Shown here: piece by piece, positions 6,448 through 56,111 of the stretch
Numbering within the stretch: position 1 is the first letter of the stretch
How the letters are laid out: every line of letters starts with the position of its first letter
Program-made: the position numbers and the translations under genes
IMG/VR virus record: IMGVR_UViG_3300025771_000033
Location: 1-56,111 of that record
DNA from: a virus
Strand: one strand, 5' to 3'
Length of the DNA stretch: 56,111 nucleotides
Notes under the pieces: generated by a model
The model's input: the letters and a program-made list of their open reading frames with translations, nothing else
The model's database searches: none
Told to the model about the DNA's origin: nothing

Positions 6448-6449
6448 AC

Positions 6450-11076: not shown

Positions 11077-11090
11077 CTAGCATAGAAAGG

Positions 11091-11131
11091 AAGAGGGAGG
11101 GAGTTTCTGAGTCAGCTTCCTCCCTCTTTTT
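11091..11131 (+). terminator. Intrinsic terminator after ssb
   Basis: AAGAGGGAGG (11091-11100) pairs with CCTCCCTCTT (11119-11128) around an 18-base loop, followed by a T-run to 11131. It closes the ssb cassette. The next gene starts at 11135, leaving no room for a promoter, so read-through must be partial for the downstream genes to be expressed. Confidence 0.85.
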
Positions 11132-11134
11132 ATT

Positions 11135-11995
11135 ATGAAAACAATAGACACTCTCGTTGAAGATATATATAGTCTGTTCTCACTTGATCCTATAGATATG
11201 GACGAGAGTGAAGTAGACAAACACATCGACACCTTTGGTGAAATGCTGAAGGTTCACATTAAAGACTTTATGTATGACACGCCCAAAGATCGTGGTAATC
11301 TAAGGCTCTCTGCTATTGGAAAGCCAGACCGCCGCATCTGGTACGATGTCAATCAGCCGCTTGATCAGGCCGACCTAACTCCAGCCACACGTATCAAGTT
11401 TCTATATGGTTATATTCTTGAAGAGCTTTTGCTTCTATGTTCTACCATATCAGGACACGAGGTGAAAGATCAGCAGAAAGAAGTGGAGGTAGAAGGTGTT
11501 ACCGGACATCAAGATTGTATTATTGATGGCGTCGTTGTGGATTGTAAGTCTGCTAGTGGTATTGGCTTCGACAAGTTTAAGCACAACAAGTTAGCAGAGG
11601 ACGATCCCTTTGGTTATATCGCACAGATATCTGCTTACGCAGAAGCTAATGGTATTAATGAGGCGGCGTTTCTTGCGATCAACAAATCAACAGGAGAGAT
11701 ATGTCTTACCAAACTACATCATATGGATATGATCAATGCCAAGCAGCGAATCTCTCACCTTAAAGGATTGGTTTCACAGGATTCTCTACCTGATAGGTGC
11801 TACTCCGATCTACCTGATGGTAAGTCTGGCAACCGTAAGCTTCCTGTTAGTTGTGTTTATTGTGGCTATAAGCGAGACTGTTGGGCTGATGCTAATCAAG
11901 GTAAAGGTATTCGTGTCTTCAAGTATGCACATGGTCGCAGGTATCTTACCAACGTGGCTAAAGAACCTGATGTGGAGGAAGTGACTGACTGGTGA
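11135..11995 (+). CDS. RecB/Cas4-like PD-(D/E)XK exonuclease with Fe-S-type cysteines
   Basis: 286 residues. RecB-family nuclease motifs in order: LEELLLLC (E97, C102), GHQD (D127), VVVDCKSA (D136, K138) and AQISAYAE (Q164, Y168). Near the end C240-x2-C243-x5-C249 repeats the spacing of the Fe-S cysteines in Cas4, AddB and Dna2, with C102 a possible fourth ligand. Probably the phage exonuclease for recombination or host-DNA degradation (role of T7 gp6). No ribosome site is visible before ATG 11135, which sits three bases after the ssb terminator; the first in-frame alternative Met at 22 would remove little. Stop overlaps the next GTG (GTGA). Confidence 0.85.
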   Translation: MKTIDTLVEDIYSLFSLDPIDMDESEVDKHIDTFGEMLKVHIKDFMYDTPKDRGNLRLSAIGKPDRRIWYDVNQPLDQADLTPATRIKFLYGYILEELLLLCSTISGHEVKDQQKEVEVEGVTGHQDCIIDGVVVDCKSASGIGFDKFKHNKLAEDDPFGYIAQISAYAEANGINEAAFLAINKSTGEICLTKLHHMDMINAKQRISHLKGLVSQDSLPDRCYSDLPDGKSGNRKLPVSCVYCGYKRDCWADANQGKGIRVFKYAHGRRYLTNVAKEPDVEEVTDW

Positions 11996-12387
11996 CACAT
12001 TGGGAGTATCATAAAGAGTTTGACACAAAGAATAACTTTGGCTTTGTTTATCGAATAACCAATAAGAAAACTAAGAAAGCTTACATTGGTTGTAAACAAT
12101 ATTATGTAACACGTAAAGGTAAGAAAGTAGAATCTAATTGGAGAATATATACAGGCTCTAGTAAATACCTTAACGAAGACATCAAGAAGATTGGCAAGAA
12201 ACATTTCCGGTTTCAAGTTGTCGGTGAGTATAAAAACAAAAGAAGTCTTCGGTACTATGAGTGTTATTTTCAAATGATCTACAAAGTTCTTACAGCAAAG
12301 TTAGAAGGTACGGATGAACCCGCCTACTACAATAACTATGTGGGCGGGAAATTTTATCGCCCCGTTCAGGAGGCTGAAGATGAGTGA
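11992..12387 (+). CDS. GIY-YIG nuclease
   Basis: 131 residues with GFVYRI at 17-22 and AYIGC at 30-34 (the GIY and YIG elements), Arg51 in NWRIYTGSS and Glu90 in RYYECYF, which match the catalytic Arg and Glu of the fold. Could be a homing-type (Seg) or Holliday/debranching nuclease of the phage. GTG start at 11992 overlaps the previous stop. It lacks a separate DNA-binding domain, unlike classical homing enzymes, so a role in replication or recombination is also reasonable. Confidence 0.8.
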   Translation: MTHWEYHKEFDTKNNFGFVYRITNKKTKKAYIGCKQYYVTRKGKKVESNWRIYTGSSKYLNEDIKKIGKKHFRFQVVGEYKNKRSLRYYECYFQMIYKVLTAKLEGTDEPAYYNNYVGGKFYRPVQEAEDE

Positions 12388-12700
12388 CATCCTTGACTTC
12401 GATAGTCTTTATGACCTAACTCAAAAAGACCCAGACAGAACTCTTAATCTAGCTATTATACTTCAGGCGTTGCTAGATATGAGTAAGCCAAAAGAACCTA
12501 ATGAAACTAATGAGACTGCTCTTCAGAGAGATCAGGCATCAGCATGGGTGTTTGCTTCAGTTGGTGTTACCTGTGAGAACTTCGAAAGCACATGTCATAT
12601 GGCCGGACTAGAGCCAGACACTGTTAGAAACTTTGCAATTAAAGCTGTAACCTCGGAGAATGTAAATGAAATCAGACGAAAGCTTAACTCGTTCCTATGA
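12380..12700 (+). CDS. Hypothetical helical protein (106 aa)
   Basis: 106 residues from ATG 12380 (MSDILDFDSLYDLTQKDPDR...). CAGGAGGCTGAAG upstream gives a strong ribosome site; the in-frame ATG at 12314 lies inside the GIY-YIG gene and is rejected. Mostly helical, two cysteines (CENFESTC). Overlaps the next gene by 35 bases. Not recognised. Confidence 0.7.
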   Translation: MSDILDFDSLYDLTQKDPDRTLNLAIILQALLDMSKPKEPNETNETALQRDQASAWVFASVGVTCENFESTCHMAGLEPDTVRNFAIKAVTSENVNEIRRKLNSFL

Positions 12701-12974
12701 CGAAGCAAACTACCCAAAAGAGGAACGCAACTATGATTATTATCTTAGACGCATGAAAGAAGAAAGAGCATTAGAACAACAGGTGGGAGGACAACACTAC
12801 AAGGGATGCAAGATACAACCAGTTGAATATATTCACGCCAATGGGCTTGACTATCTGGAGGGCAATGTGATAAAATACATTACTCGACATCGCACTAAGG
12901 GGGAGGGAAGAAAGGATATTGAGAAAGCAATCCACTATGCCCAACTCATATTGGAAATGGAATACGATAAGTAG
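12666..12974 (+). CDS. DUF3310-family protein
   Basis: 102 residues. After a charged N-terminal 38 residues comes the DUF3310 signature: VGGQHYKGCKIQPVEYIH, LDYLEGNVIKYITRHRTKGEG and DIEKAIHYAQLILE. The family is common in phages next to nucleotide-metabolism genes and is sometimes annotated as a nucleotide kinase; I know of no firm assignment of function. Here it directly precedes the ribonucleotide reductase. GGAG seven bases before ATG 12666. Confidence 0.85.
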   Translation: MKSDESLTRSYDEANYPKEERNYDYYLRRMKEERALEQQVGGQHYKGCKIQPVEYIHANGLDYLEGNVIKYITRHRTKGEGRKDIEKAIHYAQLILEMEYDK

Positions 12975-12989
12975 AAAGGGAACAAAGCT

Positions 12990-14675
12990 ATGCCACAATT
13001 TCGATCTAATGAAAATCCTATGTTTCGCTCCAAGTTTAGCGAAGACATATTCAAACATAAGTATGCCCACCATGGGTGTGAGACATGGGATGCACTAGCG
13101 GCCACACTGGTAGATGATGTGTGTCAGGACTACCTACCGAAGGAAGACAAGGACGAACTGAAGCGTATGATCACCGACCTGAAGTTTATTCCCGGTGGTC
13201 GTTATCTTTATTATGCTGGACGTGATAACAAGTTCTTTAATAACTGTTATCTGCTACGTGCAGAGGAAGATACTAGAGAAGATTGGGCTGACATCTCTTG
13301 GAAGTCTGAGTCCTGCCTGATGACAGGCGGTGGTATTGGTATCGACTACTCCGTGTATCGTGAAGAGGGACGTATACTTAACGGCACTGGTGGTCTTGCC
13401 TCCGGCCCTATTCCAAAGATGCAGATGATCAATGAGATTGGTCGTCGTGTTATGCAGGGTGGTAGTCGTAGGTCTGCTATCTATGCCAGCCTTAACTGGA
13501 AACATCCCGACGTTGATAAGTTTCTTGCCAGTAAGAACTGGTATGATATGCCCGTAGGAGAGACAGGTTTCTCTGTTGGTCAGATCAAAGAGCAGGACTT
13601 TAACTTCAATGCTCCACTGGATATGACAAACATCAGCGTTAACTACGATACTGAATGGTTACTTAACTACTGGAAGACAGGAGATGTTGGGGATACTTTT
13701 AAGCAGAATGTTAGACAAGCCCTATCTACCGCCGAGCCGGGGTTCTCTTTCAATTTCTTTGAGAAGGAAAATGAGACACTACGTAACGCTTGTACGGAGG
13801 TTACATCCGAAGATGATTCTGATGTTTGTAATCTTGGCTCTATTAATATGGGGCGCATTGACGATCTAAAAGAGTTTGCAGATGTAGTCGAGCTTGGCAC
13901 TAAGTTTCTTCTGTGCGGCACACTCAGAGCCAAGCTACCCTATGACAAAGTTTACAAGACAAGAGAAAAGAATCGTAGGCTTGGTCTTGGTCTTATGGGT
14001 ATGCACGAATGGTTGATTAAAGGAGGACAGAAGTATGAAGTTACCGAAGGACTTCACAAGTGGTTGGCAGTCTATAAAGGAGTTAGTGACCACGTTAGCG
14101 CCGACTTTAGTAGTACTCTTGGGTGTAGTCGCCCTGTCGCAAATCGTGCCATTGCTCCTACCGGCTCAATAGGTATTCTAGCTGGAACCTCTACGGGTGT
14201 TGAACCTATCTTTGCAGTTGCCTATAAGCGTAGGTATCTAAAAGGTGGCAACCGTTGGCACTATCAGTATGTGGTGGACAGCGCAGCACAGGAGATCATT
14301 GATCTGTACGGCGTAGACCCAGCAAACATTGAGTCTGCTCTTGATCTTGCAGAAGACTACAAAAGGCGTATGAAGTTTCAGGCAGATGTACAAGACTACG
14401 TTGATATGTCCATTAGTAGTACTATCAATCTGCCCAAGTGGGGGAGTAAACTTAACAATGAAGATACAGTTGATGAGTTTACCAATACTCTTGCTTCTTA
14501 TGCTCACAGGCTGCGAGGTTTCACGGTGTACCCTGACGGGTGTAGGGGAGGACAGCCTCTTTCTTCGGTGCCGTATTCTGAAGCTGTAGAAAAGCTTGGT
14601 GAAGAGTTTGAAGAAGGACTAGAGACACACGACATCTGCGATATTACTGGACATGGTGGTAGCTGTGGCGTGTAA
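12990..14675 (+). CDS. nrdJ: Class II (cobalamin-dependent) ribonucleotide reductase
   Basis: 561 residues. Reduces ribonucleotides to deoxyribonucleotides. The first redox Cys is C86 (FFNNCYLL), the radical site N266-x-C268-x-E270 (NACTE), the partner Cys C280 (DSDVCNLGSIN). APTGSIGILAGTSTGVEP and a Cys-bearing tail (HGGSCGV) are also typical. A single gene with no NrdB partner indicates the adenosylcobalamin class, so the host must supply B12. At 561 residues it is compact. AAAGGGAAC upstream. The next short gene starts inside its 3' end. Works with ThyX in dNTP supply. Confidence 0.9.
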   Translation: MPQFRSNENPMFRSKFSEDIFKHKYAHHGCETWDALAATLVDDVCQDYLPKEDKDELKRMITDLKFIPGGRYLYYAGRDNKFFNNCYLLRAEEDTREDWADISWKSESCLMTGGGIGIDYSVYREEGRILNGTGGLASGPIPKMQMINEIGRRVMQGGSRRSAIYASLNWKHPDVDKFLASKNWYDMPVGETGFSVGQIKEQDFNFNAPLDMTNISVNYDTEWLLNYWKTGDVGDTFKQNVRQALSTAEPGFSFNFFEKENETLRNACTEVTSEDDSDVCNLGSINMGRIDDLKEFADVVELGTKFLLCGTLRAKLPYDKVYKTREKNRRLGLGLMGMHEWLIKGGQKYEVTEGLHKWLAVYKGVSDHVSADFSSTLGCSRPVANRAIAPTGSIGILAGTSTGVEPIFAVAYKRRYLKGGNRWHYQYVVDSAAQEIIDLYGVDPANIESALDLAEDYKRRMKFQADVQDYVDMSISSTINLPKWGSKLNNEDTVDEFTNTLASYAHRLRGFTVYPDGCRGGQPLSSVPYSEAVEKLGEEFEEGLETHDICDITGHGGSCGV

Positions 14676-14787
14676 AAAGATGTGTAAACTAGATGAAGAT
14701 AACCGTTACTGCATTGGTTGCGGTAGAACTATAGAAGAAATAATACAGAAAGGTAAAAAAGTCCTTGACAAAATACCTAACAGGTAG
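14653..14787 (+). CDS. DUF1289-like small Cys protein (44 aa)
   Basis: 44 residues with CKKMCKLDEDNRYCIGCGRT, which matches the DUF1289 pattern (C-x3-C-x8-C-x2-C followed by R-T and EI). Probably binds Zn or an Fe-S cluster. ATG 14653 lies inside the nrdJ end; GTG 14665 and ATG 14680 are alternatives, but starting after CKKMC would lose two cysteines. Its last 23 bases overlap the hsp20 promoter. Unknown function; perhaps a redox or metal partner of NrdJ (inference from position). Confidence 0.7.
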   Translation: MVVAVACKKMCKLDEDNRYCIGCGRTIEEIIQKGKKVLDKIPNR

Positions 14788-14793
14788 TATAAT
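14765..14793 (+). promoter_or_regulatory. Sigma70-type promoter for hsp20 with palindromic spacer
   Basis: TTGACA (14765-14770), 17-base spacer and TATAAT (14788-14793): a consensus promoter at both boxes. The spacer holds the inverted repeat TACCT-AAC-AGGTA (14774-14786), again a candidate operator, with a sequence unlike the one in the ssb promoter. The -35 and spacer lie within the coding end of the DUF1289-like gene. Predicted start near 14800, leader about 50 bases. Confidence 0.88.
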
Positions 14794-14851
14794 ATATGTG
14801 TGATGCCAATAATGGGTCACGTTATATCAACTTGCTATAAGGAGAAATGAT

Positions 14852-15295
14852 ATGAACGCATATAGGACGGCGAGCGATGATCCCTTCTTTTCCAAGTTCT
14901 GTTCTTGGACTGTGGGGCATGAGCAACTCTTTAGAGATATGCTAAAGATGAAGAATGAAGTAGGTGGTTATGTTTATAATGCCTACCCACCGCATAATCT
15001 AGTAGAAGAAGGTGATGGGAAATATACGATTGAGTTAGCCACTGCTGGTTTCACCAAAGAGGAGTTGGAAGTAAAAACAGAACACAGCAAGCTAACTATC
15101 AGCGGCAAGAAAGTCGAAGAAGAAGACGATGAAAAGATCGTACATAAAGGCATAGCGAAGCGACCCTTCTCAAAGTCTTTTACTCTTGCCGAAGACGTGG
15201 TTGTAGATGATGTTTCTTTTAAAGATGGTTTGCTTACCATCAAGCTTCAAAAGGTAGTACCTGAAGACAAGAAAGAAAAGATTTACAGCCTGTAA
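14852..15295 (+). CDS. Hsp20 family small heat-shock chaperone
   Basis: 147 residues. The alpha-crystallin domain spans about 55-140: YTIELATAGFTKEELEVK, LTISGKK, KRPFSKSFTLAEDVVVDD and the conserved FKDGLLTIKLQK. Small heat-shock proteins hold unfolding proteins for refolding; marine phages carry Hsp20 genes, presumably to aid host proteostasis or virion assembly. It has a consensus promoter, a TAAGGAG ribosome site, and a terminator directly after, so it is a stand-alone, probably highly expressed unit. Confidence 0.92.
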   Translation: MNAYRTASDDPFFSKFCSWTVGHEQLFRDMLKMKNEVGGYVYNAYPPHNLVEEGDGKYTIELATAGFTKEELEVKTEHSKLTISGKKVEEEDDEKIVHKGIAKRPFSKSFTLAEDVVVDDVSFKDGLLTIKLQKVVPEDKKEKIYSL

Positions 15296-21734: not shown

Positions 21735-24700
21735 CTACTCATCAACATCAGTTAAGCTAAATTCTCTACGAACATCCTGAAGTCTTCTCAACAATCCCAT
21801 TGGGTCTTTGTCCGCAAACTTTTCTGTAAATAGATTTATTACCCTTCTATCAGTAGGATCAATAGGAATAAACCTACCCTGTGATGCGGTAACTAAATCA
21901 TTATCCGGCTTTCCTAAAAGACCATTGTCTGTGACGGCTCTAAATACACGATTGGTATCGCTAAAAGTTTTTTCAATTCCCTTTTTATCTGTATATGTGA
22001 TGTTATTAAAGATATCAAACTTATCACGTATTTTGCGAGTTACATTTAGTTTGTCTTCCATACGTGAACGATACTCATCTACAATCTGATTAGCAAGGTC
22101 TTCTGTAACTGCTTGTGGTTTAATCTGACGTAAGTAATTAAAGAACTCACTATCGCTTGCTTTCAGCTGTCTAAGGTCTGTACTAAGACTTGATCTAATT
22201 GCTTTATCAACATCAACAGTCTGCGGTCTAATACCTGTAGCCATCCAAGTTTCAAGATCATCAGGCGATAGCGGATAACCATTGGCCTGTCTAGCTACTT
22301 CGTCTACCTCTTCAGCACTTAGCTGATCCAGATACTTTCTAACAATCTCAACAGTTCCCGGCTCAAATGCGCTTGCTAATTCTAACGCACCACGTTTTAT
22401 ATTTTCTATATTAACGCCGGGACGTGATGGATCATATGTATCTTTTGACGCAATGTTCAAAAGAGAATCAGTTAAGAACTTTGGATTAACATAAGGTCCA
22501 AAGATGGAAGATGCTACGTTCTTTCCTAACTGCTCAAACTCAAACTCAGCCAAAGGTTCACCAGCCAAGGCTCTGCCTATAAGCTGTCTAATAGGAACCT
22601 TCAGATAATCTTGAGCATCATAAGCAGCAGAGCTTACATATCTGGTAGTAATTGTACCATCTTTATTTTCTTCAAACCCTTGTAGAAAAATTCTACCACC
22701 GCCTTGGCCCCATGGTGGAGACGAAGCATCCAATGCTCTTTGATTATCAGATGTAATTCCATATGCTTCGTTATTAGATTCTTCGTATGCTGCAAGGCCA
22801 CCAGCAGTTACGGTAAGACCTCCTAGACGAGCAAGACCTGTTTTCATTTGTTCTACATTTCCAGTACGAATACCTTCAATTAAATCTTTACCGCCAATCT
22901 TGATTACGTTTTTGGTTGTTCTTGCCATTTCAGAAGGAAACAAAGCATACGTACCAATCGGCAACCTAGAAAGCTGACGAGCAAAAGGACTTGCAACTGT
23001 ATAGGATGGCATAGTATCTCGTACACGTTGCGATGCTCTACTAAATATTTCATCTTCGTCTAAATCAGGATATATTTTCTTGAGACGTTTCATCTCTAGA
23101 TTGTGAGCAACTAGTTTTGCATACGTATCTGGTGTACCATACGCCTGACTAAGAGCATCCATACTTTTTCTATAGCCTTTTGAGAAAGCATTAGAAGCTT
23201 CCCTACCATACAGATTTATATTCTTTCTTATAATTTCTGCTGACAGATCACTATCAATAACACCCTGCTCTTTCAACTTTGTTAGACGTTTTAGTCCAGC
23301 ATCGCTCAATCCAGAAACATCAAAGTATTCTTTGTATAAATCTTGTCCAGCTTGTTTAATTGCTTTGGCACCTCTAATAGGTCTAAACAGATAGCCGTTT
23401 GTTGCCAAGCCCTGAACAGCACCCCATGTATTGATAAGATATGCAGGTAAGTCAAAGATTGTTTGAGTAGCCTGACCAAGTGCAGCTAGATTACCAAAGG
23501 TCTGTCCTGTAAACTTTCCGCCGACACTATTAGGATTAGACCAATAGTCTATACCATTGTTAATAAATTTATAGAACTGTGGAGAAGTGTACAAATCTTT
23601 AAGCAGAGGCGTTTTACCCCCAATACTTGCACCTAAAACTTCTGCGGTTAAATCCTCAAAGGATTTTGATGCATCTACAATAGGAGCTTTTTTCTGAACA
23701 ATAGTAGCTGTTTGTTTTGGAAGAAAAGAAACAAGACCACCAAGCTGAACAGTAGCTCTATCTGAAGCACTATCTTTCAAAGCCTGTCGTGCAAACTTAT
23801 CAACATCTGCTAAGAACTCAACTTCATTAAGAAGCTGCTTCTGTTTTGTCAATGTCGTTGACAGGCGACTTATAGCTCCACGCTCTTCACCAAGAAGTTC
23901 AAGGATTGGTTTAGCAAGATTCTTTTTTTGTTTAAGAGACTGCTTTGCAACAGAACTAGCGACCTCTTTACCAACAACACTTCCAAGCAGGTCCATAGGA
24001 TTAATTGTAATTACTGTTTCTTTCTCAGCAGGTTTAGCCAATCGTTGAACCATAGCCAAAATCATGCCGTCTACGGTCTCATCGTCTAGCTGCTTATTAG
24101 CTTTACGAGCCTCTTCTTTTATAAAGGCACGAGCGTTATCTACTTTTGTAAGAAACTCACCGCTAACCTTACCCTTTAAAGCGTCCTCAATTCTATTTAA
24201 ATATTGCACATTATTATTAGCTTCAAAGGTTCTGGTAATATAAGTACCATCACCCTCTCTACGATAACCAATACGCTGTTTTCCTTCCAAGCCCAAGACA
24301 TTGTTTAGTTCGTCTTCATTCTTTGTTATAACATCACGAGCAGACTGAAGCCTCTCAAGGGTTTTTGTTCCCTGTAGATTTTCAGATACAACCCCACTGT
24401 CAAAGAAATCATTAACTTGATCATCAGTTATCTTAGCACCAGCTTTATTATCTCTTTTAATTTCTTTATTAATACCACGAATGGTTCTTTTAATCTCCAG
24501 AGCAAGAGCGTTCTGTCCCCTAGACCTTTTTAAAGCAGCATCAAACATTTCTTTAGGCAGTCCAGCAGTAGAAGAAAACAGCCTACCAGCACCAGTGTTA
24601 ATTCCTGCAAGTATTTCAGTTATTTTAGACCTTGCACTGTCTCCAACAACTTCTGTATCTACTTTTACATTAGGAGTAGATGCTATTTCAGATGCTTCTT

Positions 24701-25733
24701 TAGCAGCCTTCTCAACAATCTTATCTCCAGCTACTGCACGTCCAATCTTTTCACCAAACGAAGGTATAAATCTACCGCCAATACCAGCAGTGATGCCGCC
24801 AATAGTAGCCATACCCGCAGTTTGTAAAGGATCAACTGATGCTTCAACAATATATTGCTGAGAAACATCAAAGGCGCCACTATAAGCAGCACCACTAGGA
24901 ACAGCAACAGCAGCAGTATACCTACCTGCTGTCTTAGCAGCTTTTTTTCTAGCTTTTTTTACAGCCTCTTTTACAAATAGACTGTCAGCATTTTTCTCAA
25001 TAACCTCTTTAGTTAAACCGTTTTGAGCTAACTGCTTCTTTAGCTGCTCTTTAAAAGAAAAACGTGCAGCAGCGCTAGCGGCCTTTCCACCAAGTAATCT
25101 AGCAACACCTGCAATACCTCCAGTTAAAACAATACTACCAAGTGTAGTTGGATCGTATAGAGTATTCTTTACAGCACGTAAAAAACTTTCCATATTTGGA
25201 TCAGCTTTTTCATACAGGTCTAAAGAATCCAGCCACGCATCTTGAACATCGTTCGGCATATCATCAATGTTCAATGCAGTCATGCCCATGCTAACAAGAT
25301 TGTTTCCTAACTTTGAGTGACGGTTCTTAAACCAATCTCCTAGATTATCATACCCTGCCTCTTCTGGATCAAAAGGTTTACCCTCTTCATATTCGTAAAT
25401 CTTTTTTCCAAGATTAATCCAGTCTTCATTTTTTTCCAAGTCATCCATTGAAATACTGGTTACAGTTTCTTCCATAGCTGGTTGACTAGTTACTTCCTTT
25501 GGATCAACAGGCGGCTGCTGTTCTTTAAGAAATTTAATATCATCTTCTAATGTAAAGGTATTAGAAGAAGGAGTAATAGGAACTATTAATCTACCGTCTT
25601 CATCAAACTGATCTGCTGAAGAAGGCGCAACAACAGGTTCCTCTGAAACAGGTTCAGAAGTTTGAACATTCTCTGTAGCAGCTTCTCTTTGTTTAAGAAG
25701 CTCTAAATCTTCTTGAAGAGTAAATGTAGCCAT
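21735..25733 (-). CDS. Giant internal virion / DNA-ejection protein (1332 aa)
   Basis: 1332 residues, almost wholly helical, with no lytic motif that I can see. A Gly/Ala-rich stretch around 200-300 (IVLTGGIAGVARLLGGKAAS, VAVPSGAAYS, GMATIGGITAGIGG) could insert in membranes. Size, place at the end of the virion block and the partner at 25736 match the internal proteins (T7 gp15/gp16-like) ejected to form a DNA channel in podoviruses. Annotation is by shape and synteny. The gene follows 25736 by two bases. Confidence 0.7.
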   Translation of the reverse strand: MATFTLQEDLELLKQREAATENVQTSEPVSEEPVVAPSSADQFDEDGRLIVPITPSSNTFTLEDDIKFLKEQQPPVDPKEVTSQPAMEETVTSISMDDLEKNEDWINLGKKIYEYEEGKPFDPEEAGYDNLGDWFKNRHSKLGNNLVSMGMTALNIDDMPNDVQDAWLDSLDLYEKADPNMESFLRAVKNTLYDPTTLGSIVLTGGIAGVARLLGGKAASAAARFSFKEQLKKQLAQNGLTKEVIEKNADSLFVKEAVKKARKKAAKTAGRYTAAVAVPSGAAYSGAFDVSQQYIVEASVDPLQTAGMATIGGITAGIGGRFIPSFGEKIGRAVAGDKIVEKAAKEASEIASTPNVKVDTEVVGDSARSKITEILAGINTGAGRLFSSTAGLPKEMFDAALKRSRGQNALALEIKRTIRGINKEIKRDNKAGAKITDDQVNDFFDSGVVSENLQGTKTLERLQSARDVITKNEDELNNVLGLEGKQRIGYRREGDGTYITRTFEANNNVQYLNRIEDALKGKVSGEFLTKVDNARAFIKEEARKANKQLDDETVDGMILAMVQRLAKPAEKETVITINPMDLLGSVVGKEVASSVAKQSLKQKKNLAKPILELLGEERGAISRLSTTLTKQKQLLNEVEFLADVDKFARQALKDSASDRATVQLGGLVSFLPKQTATIVQKKAPIVDASKSFEDLTAEVLGASIGGKTPLLKDLYTSPQFYKFINNGIDYWSNPNSVGGKFTGQTFGNLAALGQATQTIFDLPAYLINTWGAVQGLATNGYLFRPIRGAKAIKQAGQDLYKEYFDVSGLSDAGLKRLTKLKEQGVIDSDLSAEIIRKNINLYGREASNAFSKGYRKSMDALSQAYGTPDTYAKLVAHNLEMKRLKKIYPDLDEDEIFSRASQRVRDTMPSYTVASPFARQLSRLPIGTYALFPSEMARTTKNVIKIGGKDLIEGIRTGNVEQMKTGLARLGGLTVTAGGLAAYEESNNEAYGITSDNQRALDASSPPWGQGGGRIFLQGFEENKDGTITTRYVSSAAYDAQDYLKVPIRQLIGRALAGEPLAEFEFEQLGKNVASSIFGPYVNPKFLTDSLLNIASKDTYDPSRPGVNIENIKRGALELASAFEPGTVEIVRKYLDQLSAEEVDEVARQANGYPLSPDDLETWMATGIRPQTVDVDKAIRSSLSTDLRQLKASDSEFFNYLRQIKPQAVTEDLANQIVDEYRSRMEDKLNVTRKIRDKFDIFNNITYTDKKGIEKTFSDTNRVFRAVTDNGLLGKPDNDLVTASQGRFIPIDPTDRRVINLFTEKFADKDPMGLLRRLQDVRREFSLTDVDE

Positions 25734-48460: not shown

Positions 48461-50963
48461 CATCGTTTATCTCCTTCATTTGTTCATTAGCAAGCTGCGT
48501 AAGATTTTGTAACGCAGCCATATCCATTTCTTTATCGTCTTCCATTTGTTTCTTTAACATATCAGCGGCAATTTTTGCCTCTTCAATTTCTTTTCGTGTA
48601 GCTAGTTCAGCTTCTTTCATCGCCTCTTTAGATTCACGATTAAGCTGAGATTGAGTTTCTCTTGAGTTAGCTGTTGCAGATGCTTTGAGCATTTCAATAA
48701 TCTGTGCAGTTTCTTTGATCTCAAGCTCTTTGTTTTTAATCTCAAGCTCTGCTGCGTCAGTTGCAGTCTCAGACTGAAGCTTCTGTTTCTCCAGTTCAAC
48801 CTTTGCCTGTTCCAGAGCAACAAGCTGTTGTTCAGGTGACTGCGCCTGACCCATGGCTTTATTGGCGTTCATTACCTGTTGCGCTGCTTGCGCCATAGCC
48901 ATCTCAACTACCGCAGGATTATTAGCCTGATCAGGCGTTTCTTTCATAAGCTCTTCAGAAATACCAACCATTTGTTCTTGGTATTTCATTACAGAGTGTT
49001 CTTGAATGTTTGCCTGAAGTATTGGAGAAATCCGCTGCATGATAGGATTAGCACCGTTCACTGGGTCTTGAAGATAAGCCATCTTTACCTGAATATGTGC
49101 ATCATGATTCTGACCGGGGAATGCTGCAATCGGAATACCTTTCGTTACAGCCATAATATCAGATACTGGATCAAGCGGTTGCGGTTCAATCTTAGGCGGA
49201 AGTATCTTTTCAATGTTAGGCATATTAGCCGCATTGAGAATAGTTCTATTTAGTTCTTCTAGATTAAACATTCCGGGTGGCGACTGCTGCGCCATCTGTA
49301 GCGCCATGTTTGCCATCATCATGCGATGTGCGTTGCTAGGAATGTTTGGATCAGATACTGGAATAATATCTATGCGACCGTCAAAGTCTGATTTGAAAAT
49401 GCTACGGTCTTCATAGGGAACATCATAAGGATATTCGTCTGGAAGATAGTCATAGTCAATACGAGCTAGAATACGGAACTCGTCTTTCTGAGACTTGTGC
49501 ATCCTTTTATGAATTGCTGTGAAGAATTTACTACTTGCTTCAAGCAAAGCCATAGTGGTGCCAACGGGTCCATAGGAGGCAGCGTCAGAGATAACTTGCT
49601 CCGTGCTGTCCGCAAACTTCTGACCAGCAGTAGCTACGAAGTTCAGCATCTGGAATAGAGTAGAGGAAGGCTCTTTGTAGGGAAGGGGAATAATAGCCTT
49701 TGATAAATCTACACCAGTTGCCTCAACCTCCTTGAACTCGCCGGGAGCGATAGGATCATTGTCGCCAACCATCCTGACTCCCTTAGCCTTAAACCCTCCC
49801 GGCAAATTGGCAAACTGTCCAGCATCTATGAGGGAACGCATAGCTGCCGTTGCACTCATTGTTAGATTGCCAAGGAAGTGAATAAGACCTAGGCCGTAAA
49901 AACCAAAGCCGGGAACAAATCTATAATGCACAAAGTGATTTACTTTTTCTTTGTTCGGGTCATCTTGCTTATAGTTTCTACGGATACTTAGAACCTGCCT
50001 AGACTGCTGTTCAACAGTCACGATATAGGGACAGGCTTCGTCTTCATCTTCAATATTAAGATAGCAGTGCTGTTCCAGCAGAACATACTGAGGATCATGA
50101 TCTGACGTGGGAGACAAACCAATAATCGTATCCATCTTTTCGCTAAAGGAAGTGCTGGGATAAGAAGACGGAGTTCCAAGCTCAACATCTCCATATACTC
50201 CAGCCCTCATATCCCGCTGCATTTCTACGGGGCTGCGATAGATAACATGCGTATAACGATCTGCATTGGAAAGATCAGTTGCATAGTATGACACGTAGAA
50301 CTGATCAATAGGAATAAACTCTGACTTAGGACGCTTCACGGTAGCATCATAGTACAGCTTTTTAAATGCAGAACCAATTAACGGCAGATGGAACAGCATT
50401 CTTTCAAACTCATCGAAGTACTCAGGCATCTGTTCAGTAAGCTGATAGTTCATGAAGTTCTGAACACGATTAGCCTGTAGTTCTTTTTCTGGTGTGGACT
50501 TACCCATTAACTGAGCTTTAACTGGTCCGTTGGCAGGGAATAGTTCGCCCGAAGCTTTAGACTGAAACTTAACTGCCGACTCAATCAGCAGAGGGTGTAC
50601 AGCGGTGCAAGCACCCTCAAAGGGTTCTGATCCCTGTTCAAGCTTTAGTCCTAGCAGATCAAAGCCACGCTCAAACATAGACTCCCACTCAGCACGAGAA
50701 TCTTTATCTGCTTCAAAGTTTTCTATTACGTCGTTGGCAATATCATCTAGATCATCTTCGTTCATATCCTCTGCCATATTGCCATACCATTCAGCAATAT
50801 CTTCAGAGGCTTCCATCGCTACATTTTCAGAAAAGTCTACAATAACACCACCGTCGTCGTCAATTTCAAAAGTAGCATCAATGTCCTCAACTTCAGGAGC
50901 AAGAGGAACTACGTTTGTTTCTTCTTCAGGTATACGATCAAAAGGATTACGTTCTGTTGCCAT
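48447..50963 (-). CDS. Portal protein
   Basis: 838 residues. Acidic N-terminal 100 residues, then FERGFDLLGLKLEQGSEPFE, IDQFYVSYYATDLSNADRYT, VHYRFVPGFGFYGLGLIHFL and SDAASYGPVGTTMALLEASS, all characteristic of the long podovirus portal group; the C-terminal 180 residues form a Gln/Glu-rich coiled-coil barrel (QQLVALEQAKVELEKQKLQS). It forms the dodecameric DNA gate at one vertex and anchors the terminase and tail adaptors. Length is greater than P22's (about 725). A neighbour with TerL, as usual. Confidence 0.88.
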   Translation of the reverse strand: MATERNPFDRIPEEETNVVPLAPEVEDIDATFEIDDDGGVIVDFSENVAMEASEDIAEWYGNMAEDMNEDDLDDIANDVIENFEADKDSRAEWESMFERGFDLLGLKLEQGSEPFEGACTAVHPLLIESAVKFQSKASGELFPANGPVKAQLMGKSTPEKELQANRVQNFMNYQLTEQMPEYFDEFERMLFHLPLIGSAFKKLYYDATVKRPKSEFIPIDQFYVSYYATDLSNADRYTHVIYRSPVEMQRDMRAGVYGDVELGTPSSYPSTSFSEKMDTIIGLSPTSDHDPQYVLLEQHCYLNIEDEDEACPYIVTVEQQSRQVLSIRRNYKQDDPNKEKVNHFVHYRFVPGFGFYGLGLIHFLGNLTMSATAAMRSLIDAGQFANLPGGFKAKGVRMVGDNDPIAPGEFKEVEATGVDLSKAIIPLPYKEPSSTLFQMLNFVATAGQKFADSTEQVISDAASYGPVGTTMALLEASSKFFTAIHKRMHKSQKDEFRILARIDYDYLPDEYPYDVPYEDRSIFKSDFDGRIDIIPVSDPNIPSNAHRMMMANMALQMAQQSPPGMFNLEELNRTILNAANMPNIEKILPPKIEPQPLDPVSDIMAVTKGIPIAAFPGQNHDAHIQVKMAYLQDPVNGANPIMQRISPILQANIQEHSVMKYQEQMVGISEELMKETPDQANNPAVVEMAMAQAAQQVMNANKAMGQAQSPEQQLVALEQAKVELEKQKLQSETATDAAELEIKNKELEIKETAQIIEMLKASATANSRETQSQLNRESKEAMKEAELATRKEIEEAKIAADMLKKQMEDDKEMDMAALQNLTQLANEQMKEINDDDER

Positions 50964-52309
50964 TATACGATTCCTAACATTCTTTTAGCAGCATCTTCAT
51001 CAATGCCATAAATATTTGCAATACGACTTACCCTTGATGGCGGTGTAGTTGCACGTCCTAAGTTAAAAGGAATAGCCGGAGTTTCTTCTACAGCAGCAGC
51101 AACTTCTAGAGGCTGTGGTTGAGGGGTTGGTCTGGGCTGTCTATAACGTCTGCTATAATCAGTAGGGTCTTCATATTCAACATAGCCTACCTGTTCATTT
51201 GTAGGGGGAGAGAAGTCTAAATCAAAAGACTGAATACCAAAAGTATCTTCAAGACTAAACGCTTCTGGTTCACTGGTTATACCAAAAGAAGAGAGGTCCA
51301 TAGTATCTTCTTCAGGACCAACAAGACCAACGGCCATCTCCTCATAAGAGGGAATACCAATATCAGGTGCCTCTGGAAGATCAACGCCTGTTGCTTCTTC
51401 AAACATATCTGCCATGTGACCCATGACACCCTTACCTGTTCCTGACAATGCAATATCGGTTAATGCACCCAGAGGACTCCCAGTAGCTATTGTTTGCGCT
51501 ACAAGGCCAAGACCCTGTGCAAGTCCTCTATCTCTTTCAGCCTCATTAAAAGATGCTTGCGGTCCAACAGGAGCATTCAAATCATAACCCATATTTTGAA
51601 CATCTTGCACTGAAACTTTTGAGTCTACAGGCGATATAGCATTATATTGAGTTAAAGCTTCTACTGTTGTAAGATTAGGATTTTGTAAAGCAAATTCTGT
51701 AAACTGATATTTTGCTGTCGTTGCTAGATCGGGAGAAGCAAAGGTTACATTGTTAGGATCATATGTTTGTCTAGTTTGTGGTTGAGCAAACCGTGCTTCA
51801 TATGGACCTCTATAGCCTAGACCAAAAGTTCTAAGACCTAGCTCCTCTAATTTGTTCATTTCCTCTGGATTATAAATACCATATTTAGCAGTATTTATAC
51901 TTCTTGCATCTAGTAAGTTTTGAGCAAGGCCGGGGTCAACTGCGGCAACATCAGCAAGCATACCAAAATAGTTTGCTGACAACTCGTTCATAACAGAGGG
52001 ATCAACCATACTGGGATCAAGACTAAAGGCTACATCTAGAGTAGGATCAGACAAAGCCATCGCATTTGCTGCGTCTACTTCTGCTTGACTTAGTGCGTTT
52101 GCCTGCGCTTGAGAGGCCGCTTCTGCTGCTGCCATTGACGATACCATATCAGGATTTGAAAGAGAAAAATCGTAGTCGCCACCAGCATCACCATCAGCGT
52201 CGCCATCACCCTCACCAAAACAAAAATGTTTCTGTTCGTAGGGGTTCACACCTAGAAACTCTAAGTTATCATAAATATTGTATCTGGATTTTTTATAGCC
52301 ATGTAACAT
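50963..52309 (-). CDS. Hypothetical virion-block protein (448 aa), Asp/Gly-rich start
   Basis: 448 residues. Near the start, FGEGDGDADGDAGGDYDF resembles Ca-binding Asp/Gly repeats but is too short to be RTX. Ala/Gln-rich helices (residues 60-110) and a Pro-rich segment near 390 follow; the C terminus (RVSRIANIYGIDEDAAKRML) may bind the portal or another protein. It starts 17 bases inside the acyltransferase gene and shares its last base with the portal start, so it could be the acyltransferase's partner or target. Function unknown. Confidence 0.62.
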   Translation of the reverse strand: MLHGYKKSRYNIYDNLEFLGVNPYEQKHFCFGEGDGDADGDAGGDYDFSLSNPDMVSSMAAAEAASQAQANALSQAEVDAANAMALSDPTLDVAFSLDPSMVDPSVMNELSANYFGMLADVAAVDPGLAQNLLDARSINTAKYGIYNPEEMNKLEELGLRTFGLGYRGPYEARFAQPQTRQTYDPNNVTFASPDLATTAKYQFTEFALQNPNLTTVEALTQYNAISPVDSKVSVQDVQNMGYDLNAPVGPQASFNEAERDRGLAQGLGLVAQTIATGSPLGALTDIALSGTGKGVMGHMADMFEEATGVDLPEAPDIGIPSYEEMAVGLVGPEEDTMDLSSFGITSEPEAFSLEDTFGIQSFDLDFSPPTNEQVGYVEYEDPTDYSRRYRQPRPTPQPQPLEVAAAVEETPAIPFNLGRATTPPSRVSRIANIYGIDEDAAKRMLGIV

Positions 52310-52691
52310 GATGTAACTCTTTCTTCCCCTTTTTAGTTCTAAAGAATTTTATTTTTCCTTTGACACCTAGATGTCTAGGAACTTTCTTTAGCTCTTTGAT
52401 TCCCTCTGCGGTTCCACCCATGGGACAGACAATATCCATAATCCATGGTACATGTCCACTATTCCAATCACTTGCATGAATGTTTCTTTTTGAAAACTCT
52501 CTTGCGTCTGATGCTTCCTGATTCATAAAAGCCCATGAGGCATAGAATAGTGGAACCTTTTCATTTGAAATAAAAATATATTGTTTAAGTTGTAGCGGCG
52601 GTAAAATTCTATGTACTATATCTTTGACGGTCCAGCTTCTATGTACCTCTGATAAACTTAAAGTATATATTATTTTTTCTAATTCAATCAC
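52293..52691 (-). CDS. HlyC-like toxin-activating lysine acyltransferase
   Basis: 132 residues. SEVHRSWTVKDIVHRILPPL (S14, H17), LKQYIFISNEKVPLFYASWA and WNSGHVPWIMDIVCPMGG (D86) align residue for residue with HlyC/ApxC: the catalytic His (HlyC His23) and Asp (Asp92) are kept. These enzymes move a fatty acyl group from acyl-ACP to a lysine of RTX toxins. HlyC is about 170 residues, so this is a shorter version. Function in a phage is unknown; it may acylate a virion protein or host protein. It abuts the cupin gene and overlaps the 448-residue gene. Confidence 0.82.
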   Translation of the reverse strand: MIELEKIIYTLSLSEVHRSWTVKDIVHRILPPLQLKQYIFISNEKVPLFYASWAFMNQEASDAREFSKRNIHASDWNSGHVPWIMDIVCPMGGTAEGIKELKKVPRHLGVKGKIKFFRTKKGKKELHHVTWL

Positions 52692-53305
52692 TACTTAATA
52701 CCTTTTGCGTGTTCTTCTCCTAACTCCTCACCGTTCCAACTATTAGCAATAGACTCTCCAGCCTTACCACTTAACCATTTTTGAACAGAGAAGAAACATG
52801 CTCCATTAGGACCAGACTCTGCGCCATGTACCGTATTTGGCTTTAGTCTTATCTTTCTCATATATGCAGAAGCTTTTCCATTTTTTTCTACATAGTGTCC
52901 TTCTTGTTTACTAAGAACTTCTTTTCCTTTAAACCTAAAATTTGTTCCATAAAGGTAGACAACATAACTATCTACATCAGGATGATTGTGATCGTAAGTT
53001 ACTGTATCAGGTTGCATATAAACAAGTTCTACCTGATACGGTCCATGTCTAAATAAAGTACAAGCAGTATGGCCTTCAATAAATAAAAGTGGATTATCAA
53101 AAGGAACTTGAAACTTATTTGGACACTCCTCAAAGTACCATCGCATAAACCCAGTTAGATCGTCATAAAACTCATAACCCAGATCATCTTTGATATAGGC
53201 CGATGGAAAAAGTTTTACTTCCGGCTTTTTATTTTTTTGAAGAGCAGAGATAAGAGCATTTAACTTATTATCTAGCTCGTTTACTTTTTTTTCTAAATTA
53301 ACCAT
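52691..53305 (-). CDS. Cupin-domain protein (204 aa)
   Basis: 204 residues. An N-terminal coiled coil (VNLEKKVNELDNKLNALISA, 2-21), then a cupin barrel: DHNHPDVDSYVVYLYG gives H106-x-H108-x3-D112 and later KPNTVHGAESGPNG gives H160, the usual metal ligands (Asp for Glu). Either a metal-dependent enzyme or a structural cupin. The ATG falls at the predicted transcription start of a late promoter with no ribosome site, so its messenger may be leaderless. It is followed without a gap by the acyltransferase. Confidence 0.75.
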   Translation of the reverse strand: MVNLEKKVNELDNKLNALISALQKNKKPEVKLFPSAYIKDDLGYEFYDDLTGFMRWYFEECPNKFQVPFDNPLLFIEGHTACTLFRHGPYQVELVYMQPDTVTYDHNHPDVDSYVVYLYGTNFRFKGKEVLSKQEGHYVEKNGKASAYMRKIRLKPNTVHGAESGPNGACFFSVQKWLSGKAGESIANSWNGEELGEEHAKGIK

Positions 53306-53311
53306 GTTATT

Positions 53312-53341
53312 ATTATAGCATACTTTTTCCGTTTTCCCAAA
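53312..53341 (-). promoter_or_regulatory. Late promoter, copy 1 (TTTGGGAAAA-N14-TATAATAATA)
   Basis: On the - strand TTTGGGAAAA (53341-53332), 14 bases, TATAAT (53317-53312) continuing AATAAC then ATG. TGC before the -10 makes it an extended -10. Begins one base after the terL stop; drives the cupin, acyltransferase and portal genes. Confidence 0.87.
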
Positions 53342-54880
53342 TCATACATTCCAGTATGTCGCAGTTTTCTGTCTAGGCTCGTCATCATACTCAGGATCAT
53401 CAGGGTGCGTCAGGTGCCATGAGTCCTTCAGATAGTGGATTGCCATCGTTAAGGCATCCACTTGGTCATCATGTGCTGCATTAGGAAAGCGTATCAGTTC
53501 TTCTATTAGATCGTCTGCCCACTTCTTGCCCTTGGGAATCCAGAGACGACCAGCCTCCATTATAGGAGTAGCCGCATAAACTCTGGAGGTCTTGTCTCTA
53601 TCTGGCAGATACTCCATTACAGGTAGGCCACCTCTACGCATATCCTGTATTAGAGATTGGCCCGAAGCTTTCTTTTCCACCATGCAGACATCAGGTCTAT
53701 GTTGGTTATACAGCTTCTGCGCCAGCCGCCTCAGTTCTGGATATTCAAAGCGGCCCTTGATGTTACCCAGTAGTATCAGGTGAGGAGCAAAGTCTTCATA
53801 GCCTTGCTCATCCTGATTGTACATGTAGAAGATACCCCATGTCTGTATTACGCTGTAGTCAGCAGTACTTGCTGTGGAGAATGCAGTATCAAATGTTTGT
53901 ATGACAAAATCACATGTGGGTGGATCACCATACTCCCAATCCTTGATCCAGCGTTTCTTTATGATGCCGCCTTCTTCCGGTGTGGGGTCTTGCATGTACA
54001 AGGCATTCCAGTACCTGCTACCGTTGCTGGCCTTGATCTCGTTCTCGTCTACCTTCAGCACATGGTCTGGTTTCCACTCAGGAAAGTAGCTGGTGCCTAC
54101 AGGTAGATCAAGAAGTTCTGCTGCATCTTCGTCAACCCATGCAGGTATCTTCACTACCTCCCAAGGTATCGTCTCATAGTCAGGCATGTTCTCCTGTTGC
54201 TTAAGAAGCCAGCCGCAGAGATCGTCATAGTGATATCGGGTGTTGATTATTACAATGGCCCCGTCAGGCATGATACGTGTGCGTAGACCTGCGGGATACC
54301 ATTCCTTGATGAAGCGTCTACCTGCGCTGGAGATTGCATCCTCTTCCGACATTGCATCGTCTAGGATTGCTACATGTGCGCCTCGACCAGCAATCTGAGA
54401 GCGGACACCAGCAGCATAGTAGGTTCCATTCTGGTTTGTCTTCCACTTACCTGCTGCCCTGACATCGCTACGTAGGGCCACTCCTCTGAATACCTTTGAG
54501 AACTCTTCGGTGTTAACAATATCTCTGACTGATCTACCAAAGTCACTGGCAAGCTGATCACTATGAGATATTGTCAGTAGTTCGTGTTCAGGGTTTCTAC
54601 CTATGTACCATGCAGGAAACAACTTAGAACAGACAACAGACTTAGAAGAACGTGGTGGTAGAAAGACCATCAGTCTTTTTATCTCACCATTTTCTACTTG
54701 TTGTAGTTTCTCTGATATAACTTCAATGTGCCGCCCCATTCTAAAGTCAGACACAATTGAAGGTGCCATCAATCTAACAAAAGACAAGAAGTCAGTGTTA
54801 CATTGATCATTAACTTGTTGAGACAACAAACCTTGAAGGTTTATATACGAATCTATGTAGTTACTATTTAAATTCTCCAT
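53342..54880 (-). CDS. terL: Terminase large subunit
   Basis: 512 residues from ATG 54880. ATPase: FLPPRSSKS (73-81) is the P-loop variant, VAILDDA (170-176) Walker B, followed by VIINTRYHYDDL. Nuclease (RNase H fold): FDTAF (D331), MVEKKASG (E402), AHDDQVDA (D471/D472). Pumps DNA into the prohead through the portal and cuts it. The frame extends upstream to 54988 but that part is low-complexity and crosses the promoter. ATG 54880 lies seven bases after the -10, again a leaderless arrangement. The small subunit is encoded far away on the other strand. Confidence 0.93.
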   Translation of the reverse strand: MENLNSNYIDSYINLQGLLSQQVNDQCNTDFLSFVRLMAPSIVSDFRMGRHIEVISEKLQQVENGEIKRLMVFLPPRSSKSVVCSKLFPAWYIGRNPEHELLTISHSDQLASDFGRSVRDIVNTEEFSKVFRGVALRSDVRAAGKWKTNQNGTYYAAGVRSQIAGRGAHVAILDDAMSEEDAISSAGRRFIKEWYPAGLRTRIMPDGAIVIINTRYHYDDLCGWLLKQQENMPDYETIPWEVVKIPAWVDEDAAELLDLPVGTSYFPEWKPDHVLKVDENEIKASNGSRYWNALYMQDPTPEEGGIIKKRWIKDWEYGDPPTCDFVIQTFDTAFSTASTADYSVIQTWGIFYMYNQDEQGYEDFAPHLILLGNIKGRFEYPELRRLAQKLYNQHRPDVCMVEKKASGQSLIQDMRRGGLPVMEYLPDRDKTSRVYAATPIMEAGRLWIPKGKKWADDLIEELIRFPNAAHDDQVDALTMAIHYLKDSWHLTHPDDPEYDDEPRQKTATYWNV

Positions 54881-54886
54881 AGTAAT

Positions 54887-54915
54887 ATTATACACTATAC
54901 TGTAAAGTTCTACAA
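54887..54915 (-). promoter_or_regulatory. Promoter of terL and the late module
   Basis: On the - strand TTGTAG (54915-54910), 17-base spacer, TATAAT (54892-54887), then ATTACT and the terL ATG. A housekeeping-type promoter with no TTTGGGAAA element, so it may fire earlier than the three other late promoters. Predicted start within a base of the ATG, with no ribosome site. Confidence 0.7.
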
Positions 54916-54992
54916 TAGAGATATTAAAAAAATAATAATAAAATACTATTAAGTAGTTAATTAGTACCGCCTTGTGGTATTTATGCAACAGT

Positions 54993-55139
54993 TATAGATA
55001 TCTTTTTTATATTGATGACAAGTCCGTAGTTTTTTGTAAATATCTGGGGGTGTTGTTTATATATATACATGCGTGTATGCATTTGCGCCCACCCCCACGC
55101 ATTATGCAACCCTCCCGACCAAGTTCTGAACAAGGAAAC
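54993..55139. other. AT-rich intergenic segment with nested inverted repeats; possible replication origin
   Basis: No gene on either strand. GGGGGTG (55046-55052) and CACCCCC (55090-55096) form an inverted repeat around an AT-rich segment with TATATATATA and the inner ATACA-TGCG-TGTAT. TGCAT/ATGCA repeats flank the right side. The place between the divergent modules fits an origin or control region, but no initiator boxes are recognised. Confidence 0.4.
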
Positions 55140-55192
55140 CTAATTAATCCCTTCATAGTAGTAACGAAGTGTTACTATGAAGGGTTAATTAG
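55140..55192 (+). repeat. Early-module long hairpin, copy 3
   Basis: Left arm 55140-55160 and right arm 55173-55192 (CTAATTAA-CCCTTCATAGTA type) pair over 20 positions with one bulged T. The core GTAAC...GTTAC offers an inner alternative. No gene follows for 270 bases, so unlike copies 2 and 4 it is not next to a ribosome site; it may act as a processing site of the early leader. Confidence 0.82.
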
Positions 55193-55282
55193 TTATTATA
55201 TTACAAACCCTCCCTGCCAAATTCATCCAGAGGATGCTTTGTAGTCAGCTTTCTACTACTTCGTAGTAATTCCAGAAACCTA

Positions 55283-55370
55283 GTTAAGCCCTTGACAAAG
55301 CGTAGCTTTTCCATGCTATGCAGTCTTTGCAAGACTGTCATGCAGGTGATGATATGCCAGAGGGCTTGAC
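55283..55370 (+). ncRNA. Multi-hairpin element in the early leader
   Basis: Outer helix GTTAAGCCCT (55283-55292) with AGGGCTTGAC (55361-55370), ten pairs with one wobble. Inside: AAAGC-GTA-GCTTT (55297-55309), CAGTCTT-TGC-AAGACTG (55321-55337, perfect) and a weaker GCA/TGC pairing. No open frame with a ribosome site. It looks like a structured leader RNA or small RNA of unknown class; it lies upstream of hairpin copy 4 and the gene at 55466. Confidence 0.5.
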
Positions 55371-55397
55371 GAGGCTTGACAACCCCAAATGATGAGG

Positions 55398-55449
55398 TTA
55401 ATTAATCCCTATAGAACGAACTCTATGAGTTCTATAGGGTATTAATTAA
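55398..55449 (+). repeat. Early-module long hairpin, copy 4
   Basis: Arms at 55398-55417 and 55429-55449 (TTAATTAAT-CCCTATAGAAC type) pair over 20 positions with one bulged base. The loop region also contains GAACTC-TAT-GAGTTC, an inner perfect hairpin. It ends four bases before the AAGGAG ribosome site of the gene at 55466, as copy 2 does before the primase-helicase gene. Confidence 0.85.
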
Positions 55450-55465
55450 ACCAAGGAGATTGACC

Positions 55466-55642
55466 ATGACAAACATCACCGTTCTTCAATCAGAGATTGA
55501 CGAGTTTCTTGATAGCAGCTTTCAGGTTCACACATCTGTGAACGGCGGAGCCGTCGATCTGCATGATGCGAATGGCGTATGGATCGCCACGTTGGACACA
55601 GACGAAGCAACGCTGGAAAACATCTTCCAGTTTCAGCGTTAA
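55466..55642 (+). CDS. First early gene, hypothetical protein (58 aa)
   Basis: 58 residues (MTNITVLQSEIDEFLDSSFQ...), small alpha/beta, acidic. AAGGAGATTGACC upstream gives a strong site and ATG 55466 is preferred to the TTG at 55460. GC-richer than its neighbours. It is bracketed by hairpin copies 4 and 5, and is the first gene of the rightward module, where phages usually place anti-host proteins. Not recognised. Confidence 0.7.
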   Translation: MTNITVLQSEIDEFLDSSFQVHTSVNGGAVDLHDANGVWIATLDTDEATLENIFQFQR

Positions 55643-55652
55643 ATCGGCATAC

Positions 55653-55704
55653 CTAATTAGCCCTTTATAGTAGAGTATCTACGATACTATAAAGGGTTAA
55701 TTAG
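55653..55704 (+). repeat. Early-module long hairpin, copy 5
   Basis: Arms at 55653-55672 and 55685-55704 (CTAATTAG-CCCTTTATAGTA type) pair over 20 positions with one G-T wobble; 12-base loop GAGTATCTACGA, almost the loop of copy 1. Starts 10 bases after the stop of the gene at 55466. Confidence 0.85.
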
Positions 55705-55722
55705 TTTTCGGAATCATTTTTC

Positions 55723-55782
55723 ATGGATGAACGGCAGAAATATCCATTTTCAGAGCCAGTTATCGTTTTTCATGAGCAGTGA
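55723..55782 (+). CDS. Doubtful 19-residue micro-ORF
   Basis: ATG 55723 to TGA 55780-55782 codes for MDERQKYPFSEPVIVFHEQ. GGA at 55710 is a weak ribosome site. It lies between hairpin copy 5 and the large structured element. Nothing else supports it; listed because the interval 55705-55778 has no other content. Confidence 0.25.
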   Translation: MDERQKYPFSEPVIVFHEQ

Positions 55783-55925
55783 AAGTTTGATTAAGCTATT
55801 CGACGGGTTTGGGTTCGATTCCCTTATGCCTTTACGGAGGTAGCCCGGATGCTACATTGGATGCATACGATGCAGTATCACGAAGCGGGACATGGCAAAG
55901 TCGGATAGCTTAATTAAATTTTCGC
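55779..55925 (+). ncRNA. Structured element with 26-bp outer helix and tRNA T-loop-like hairpin
   Basis: 55779-55804 pairs with 55900-55925 over 26 consecutive positions, counting G-T wobbles, with no mismatch. Inside are GGG-TTCGATT-CCC (55811-55823; TTCGATT is a textbook T-loop), GTAGC-CCGGAT-GCTAC (55840-55855), and TGCAT-ACG-ATGCA (55862-55874), a four-way-junction layout. The outer helix holds a TTAATTAA/TTGATTAA core like the other early hairpins. No full tRNA cloverleaf can be drawn. Class unknown: a small RNA, decoy, or processing element. Confidence 0.6.
55849..55908 (+). CDS. Doubtful 19-residue micro-ORF inside the structured element
   Basis: GGAGG (55836-55840) lies eight bases before ATG 55849, which opens MLHWMHTMQYHEAGHGKVG then TAG. 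The ribosome site is near ideal, but the frame lies wholly in the structured element and its bases are also needed for pairing. It may be a leader peptide whose translation unfolds the structure, or chance. Confidence 0.3.
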   Translation: MLHWMHTMQYHEAGHGKVG

Positions 55926-55944
55926 AACTTAATCGGAGATTAAA

Positions 55945-56028
55945 ATGTTTGAGCCTCTTGTCGGTGCTATGGTTGGTGCCTTTGGCTATGTCATAGTATG
56001 GGCTATGTTTTATCTTTTATCCAAATAA
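55945..56028 (+). CDS. 27-residue membrane peptide
   Basis: ATG 55945 with CGGAGATTAAA upstream; product begins MFEPLVGAMVGAFGYVIVWA and continues MFYLLSK, one membrane helix with Gly-x3-Gly spacing suited to helix packing. Followed by a GGAGG ribosome site and the next gene. Strong ribosome site and clear composition support it; it may be an early membrane-acting peptide. Confidence 0.65.
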   Translation: MFEPLVGAMVGAFGYVIVWAMFYLLSK

Positions 56029-56040
56029 CCGGAGGTTATT

Positions 56041-56111
56041 ATGGCGACGATCCAAGTTTTCCAAAGTAGTAGTGGCTATACCACTATTGCGTTGGTTTGC
56101 CCTAAGAGTGG
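56041..56111 (+). CDS. N-terminal part of a 44-residue protein split by the window ends
   Basis: ATG 56041 follows CCGGAGGTTATT. The frame (MATIQVFQSSSGYTTIALVC then PKSG) runs off the end with two bases of a Gly codon; base 1 of the window completes it (GGA) and the frame continues to the TAA at 62-64. A beta-hairpin followed by a polar helix is plausible. Unknown function. Confidence 0.65.
   Translation, partial: MATIQVFQSSSGYTTIALVCPKS

Follow-up and report, generated by a model that had tools for sequence, protein, structure and literature searches.

The sequence analysed here, referred to throughout as the window, is the whole of the IMG/VR virus record IMGVR_UViG_3300025771_000033 (positions 1 to 56,111; 56,111 bases). 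Its genes lie in two blocks, as a preliminary description made from the letters had stated: plus-strand genes run to 20550, minus-strand genes occupy 20672 to 54880 and plus-strand genes resume from 55466. The convergent point lies between 20550 on the plus strand and 20672 on the minus strand, and the divergent point separates the minus-strand gene of the terminase large subunit (TerL), whose start codon is at 54880, from the plus-strand gene that opens with the ATG at 55466. The latter was rightly named the first early gene, for its homologues stand at the same place in three related contigs, G001, G002 and G003. At the opposite end of the record, the gene of a DUF7227 protein is the first intact gene after the contig break. 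The main features are collected in Table 1.

Table 1. Features of the window, with their coordinates, strand and supporting evidence.
Feature	Coordinates	Strand	Evidence
Probable C-terminus of another small early gene (..NASAMREDAVWNATNSQMED, stop), cut by contig start	1..64	+	ASAMRxxxVWN-type match
DUF7227 protein (PF23872), 222 aa	65..733	+	Pfam 308 bits; 34 related viral loci
Terminase large subunit (TerL)	53342..54880	-	phrog_38 351 bits; Pfam Terminase_6C
First early gene, 58 aa	55466..55642	+	Homologues in G001, G002, G003
143-nt element: hairpins, one resembling a T-arm, enclosed by a 24-nt inverted-repeat stem	55781..55923	+	Folding, covariation
Start of 95-aa early gene (first 23 codons and 2 bases), cut by contig end	56041..56111	+	L040, L010, L041
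Hairpin family copies	731-791, 6446-6505, 55136-55196, 55394-55453, 55649-55708	+ (55649-55708)	Model matches

In the late block, a 447-aa protein is encoded at 50963-52309, between the portal gene and the TerL side; it gave no PHROG or Pfam match and no phage record in tblastn, and a homologue was found in G001 (57%) and none in G002 or G003. The same block encodes a 1,331-residue protein (21735-25733), which gave no match in the PHROG search and of which only parts are conserved in G001-G004. Between early genes, at 11084-11135, there is a strong hairpin, rich in GC and with a run of T after it, which is unlike the family of hairpins of about 60 nt described below and looks like an ordinary intrinsic terminator. 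Neither a tRNA nor an Rfam family at gathering score was found in the window.

When compared with isolated phages, the DUF7227 protein is 63% identical to its homologue in Roseobacter phage CRP-345, the DNA polymerase is 46% identical to that of Pelagibacter phage HTVC115P, TerL is 40% identical to that of Pelagibacter phage HTVC027P and the portal protein is 36-42% identical to those of CRP-902 and HTVC027P, while megablast of window 36001-56111 returned no phage record; judged from these sequences, the best isolate matches of the window are distant. CRP-345 is described as an HMO-2011-type phage (PMC9038755). Like the window, it has a plus-strand early block and a minus-strand late block, its record is opened near the divergence and its convergent point lies near 19.9 kb. 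Because this layout is an ordinary one, as in CRP-345, the neat closure of the two blocks is no proof of completeness. Unlike the window, CRP-345 shows no match to the hairpin family in the 30.7 of its 54.7 kb that were searched, 16 kb from the start and 14.7 kb from the end. In addition, the 543-aa polymerase of the window lacks the HMO-2011-type DnaJ motif CXXCXGXG, as do all plus-strand frames of 1-20550, and for this polymerase Pfam gave only DNA_pol_A, with no partial DnaJ domain of the HMO-2011 type.

The two ends of the record can be read into one another in frame. A GGAGG at 56031 precedes an ATG at 56041, from which 71 bases (23 codons and two bases) are left to the end; base 1 of the window completes a Gly codon, GGA, and the frame runs on to a TAA at 62-64, which is abutted by the ATG at 65. 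This arithmetic is correct, and the ORF joined across 56111/1 has 44 aa. From it, together with the two-block layout, the preliminary description had concluded that the record is probably a closed genome, a conclusion to be given up if homologues were found to diverge exactly at the join. When random joins were made in the plus-strand early block, 7,594 of 15,714 (48%) gave a comparable ORF, that is, one started by ATG with at least 20 codons before the join and at least 17 after it, and 3,035 (19%) had an additional ATG at the stop. Since about half of the random early-block joins give such an ORF, the in-frame join carries little weight. Furthermore, neither terminal repeats nor overlapping ends, by which a closed genome is recognised, are seen in the window: its ends have no exact overlap of 6-200 bases, and its first 3 kb and last 3 kb share no 15-mer.

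The sequence beyond the right end is provided by L040 (IMGVR_UViG_3300006869_001541), the only contig found to carry the last 23 bases of the window in a scan of viral contigs, although such short-pattern scans may omit records very near the window. L040 is 99.97% identical to window 49408-56111, the only mismatches in 6,704 bases being at 55773 and 56076, and it extends 1,328 bases beyond 56111 without reaching window base 1. This overhang has no match anywhere in the window and contains the remainder of a 95-aa gene, followed by some four further early genes of which the last is truncated. Because this near-identical contig shows that at least 1,328 bases are missing between them, the ends of the window do not meet. 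Another close contig, G013, agrees with window 497-14856 at all but one of 14,360 bases and ends at window 497.

The ORF at the right end is the beginning of the 95-aa gene. In L040 (6634-6921), the first 24 residues are the same as those of the end ORF of the window and are followed by 71 more. The homologues have 95 aa in L040 and L041 and 94 aa in L010, in which 22 of 24 columns are identical to the first 24 residues of the window ORF, with one gap and one substitution, before the two proteins differ. The residues next after the shared start in the L040, L010 and L041 proteins (IKAYISAQV...) are absent from the window, and the last residue common to the window ORF and its homologue is the Gly, which is encoded by any GGN codon. 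In L040, L010 and L041 alike, the divergence falls exactly at the join, the very finding on which the claim that the ends join was to be abandoned, and it is abandoned here. In L010 other genes fill the stretch from the point where the match to the window stops, at 56111 (locus 6391), to the point where it restarts, at window 54 (locus 7989). In L009 and L005, too, the last match short of 56111 is separated from the DUF7227 gene by other genes. Among the 34 related loci collected by a scan with the DUF7227 protein (65-733), 14 align to the L040 overhang; L010 matches it in the 6392-7334 region (89%) and at 7378-7665 (83%), and the DUF7227 gene starts 336 bases beyond the overhang match in L010, 338 bases beyond it in L012 and 113 bases beyond it in L005.

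The distance between the start codons of TerL and DUF7227 was 1,840-3,119 bases in the 19 of these 34 loci in which it was measured, although not all of the values are independent (L005/L006 and L025/L026 are identical and L019/L020 nearly so), and closing the window would give 1,295 bases, which is below all 19. In L040, 2,559 bases past the TerL start (1,231 within the window and 1,328 beyond it) are covered and the DUF7227 gene has still not been reached. The missing stretch is at least 1,328 bases and probably measures about 1.4-1.8 kb; since 1,328 bases are seen in L040 and some 0.05-0.4 kb more would be expected, the true genome would be about 57.5-58 kb long. As L040 is a different contig, the strain of the window could formally differ from it by a deletion of some 1.4-1.8 kb, by which two early genes were fused in frame in a genome that is truly closed and only trimmed at its ends; early cassettes do come and go among the relatives, and the frame does continue across 56111/1. 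However, such a frame arises by chance about half the time, the interval of 1,295 bases stands against at least 1,840 in every measured relative, the fusion point would have to coincide exactly with the contig ends, and the first 29 bases of the window were found in no other viral contig by a pattern scan, which may omit very near records. A deletion is considered very improbable.

At the left end, window bases 2-61 translate to NASAMREDAVWNATNSQMED, followed by a stop codon. The motif ASAMRxxxVWN, or a near-match to it, occurs in 24 of 64 loci (L005-L068), near the C-terminal end of ORFs some 60-67 aa long, L017 5857-6060 for instance; these matches are weak (each with an E value of 0.095-0.25), most of the 64 loci had been retrieved with the L017 protein as query, L042 duplicates the contig of L017, and among the first 34 loci the match was found in L017 only. 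A degenerate pattern for the first codons of the window matched no viral contig. From this resemblance, the start of the window probably cuts a second, different small gene near its C-terminus.

The circular map of the preliminary description, on the other hand, is upheld by the relatives. G003 (57,305 bases), G001 (53,229 bases) and G002 (47,104 bases) each span the 56111/1 region, which in them is flanked by TerL and by the DUF7227 gene; relative to the window they are cut elsewhere, G003 near 44.5-46.6 kb, G001 at 15-19 kb and G002 at 36-45.5 kb; no end repeats were found in the three. The gene map is supported as circular across the group, a statement that concerns gene order and says nothing direct on the form of the DNA in the particle. 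PhiM6, an HMO-2011-related phage, is described as having a terminase of superfamily 6, with a pac site and permuted ends both predicted (PMC6256558); by analogy only, headful packaging is likely for the phage of the window, whose TerL belongs to Terminase_6C. That no end repeats were found in the window would suit a linear virion genome with fixed physical ends at bases 1 and 56111; but L040 continues past 56111, G001, G002 and G003 are unbroken through the region and such ends would cut a coding gene, which leaves this explanation scarcely credible.

Almost certainly, therefore, the window is a metagenome contig, nearly complete but left open, of a tailed phage with a circular gene map. The break would fall within an island where the small early genes vary, just downstream of the point at which TerL and the early genes diverge. 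At the right end only 23 codons and two bases of the 95-aa gene would be left, at the left end the other small gene discussed above would most likely be cut, and what is missing between them would be the remainder of the 95-aa gene with some four or more further small genes. The 44-aa joined ORF would then be a chance in-frame chimera of two broken genes. Because the small genes between the divergence and the DUF7227 gene differ among relatives, we infer that strain variation in the island was the cause of the break. Like other unclosed viral contigs from metagenomes, the window has ends that cut genes and no terminal repeat, and near-identical contigs (L040 and G013) end elsewhere on either side; unlike a typical one, it is nearly complete, with only about 1.4-1.8 kb presumed missing. 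An attractive but wrong sign of completeness is hereby corrected: in a gene-dense block on one strand, an in-frame join of contig ends is about a coin toss and is unfit for calling a viral genome closed, and one near-identical contig settles the matter.

The early block is also characterized by hairpins of about 60 nt, of which the window has five copies there and none in the late block. A model built from eight copies, drawn from three records (the window with five, L010 with two and L041 with one), gave 124 matches in 23 sources with both strands counted; 73 of them, including 50 distinct ones, are on the early-gene strand, in 16 of the 23 sources. The hairpins were present in 15 of the 22 related loci searched, the model finding no copies in L008, L011, L013, L014, L015, L023 and L028. 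They are often placed at the ends of genes: 33 of the 50 distinct copies begin no more than 8 nt from a stop codon (ORFs of at least 45 codons), compared with a mean of 2.3 and a maximum of 7 for random nearby positions. In the 11-pair stem, 98.1% of the cells are paired and 8 of the 11 pairs change on both sides among 34 hand-picked copies, those from related genomes not being independent of one another. Covariation scored 0.562; shuffled alignments gave 0.184 and slid ones 0.162 at the most. The number of further pair types, at 15, did not rise above the 16.9 of the shuffles. The arms change by compensatory substitution, and the central AGTA...TACT core is nearly fixed. With lax thresholds, the best Rfam match over 54880-56111 was Spy392987 (28.3 bits, gathering score 47), accompanied by plant and animal miRNA families; all of these matches fall on the hairpins and all are below gathering. 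In the literature on related repeated hairpins nothing was recognised as this family, which is no proof of its absence in print. mRNA processing, termination and cassette exchange are candidate functions of the hairpins.

Next to them lies the 143-nt element, which folds as a long stem enclosing a T-arm-like hairpin (GGGTTCGATTCCC) and other hairpins (z -6.56). A model of the element made from five sequences recovered the same five among 47 sources and no others, and a pattern scan of viral contigs gave no new contig. In the hand-edited RNAalifold structure 9 of 46 pairs change on both sides (2.9 in shuffles), and in the RNAalifold consensus itself 10 of 52 pairs do so, numbers that come from five distinct sequences, four of them close, and are to be read as thin. 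As for the identity of the element, a tmRNA is not proposed, since the overlap of the tmRNA model with the T-arm-like hairpin was limited to 13 bases (10.9 bits, gathering score 47). A permuted-tRNA reading was also considered, by eye on the alignment of the five sequences, in which a TGCC strand may pair either with a GGYA close by or with a GGCA farther away, the five sequences favouring neither.

Repeated stem-loops between small genes are reminiscent of the PeSLs, whose original papers are said to be Arbiol 2010 and Comeau 2014. PeSLs are promoter-stem-loop cassettes of T4-like phages (PMC4503421), and like them the hairpins of the window separate small genes where genes are shuffled, the gene content of this region differing among relatives. 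Unlike the PeSLs, they belong to a phage which is not T4-like. Candidates for an early promoter coupled to each stem-loop would be sigma-70-like sites, which in 54900-56111 number 7, against 4.1 (sd 1.9) in shuffles. Tentatively, and with rather more doubt than assurance, the region may be regarded as a shuffling island of small early genes, PeSL-like outside T4-like phages, in which a phage-specific hairpin family closes many of the genes and the hairpins would act both as mRNA processing or termination signals and as homology for cassette exchange, together with the 143-nt element bearing the T-arm-like hairpin. The early-gene island with its covarying hairpins is a possible handle on how these phages exchange their early genes.
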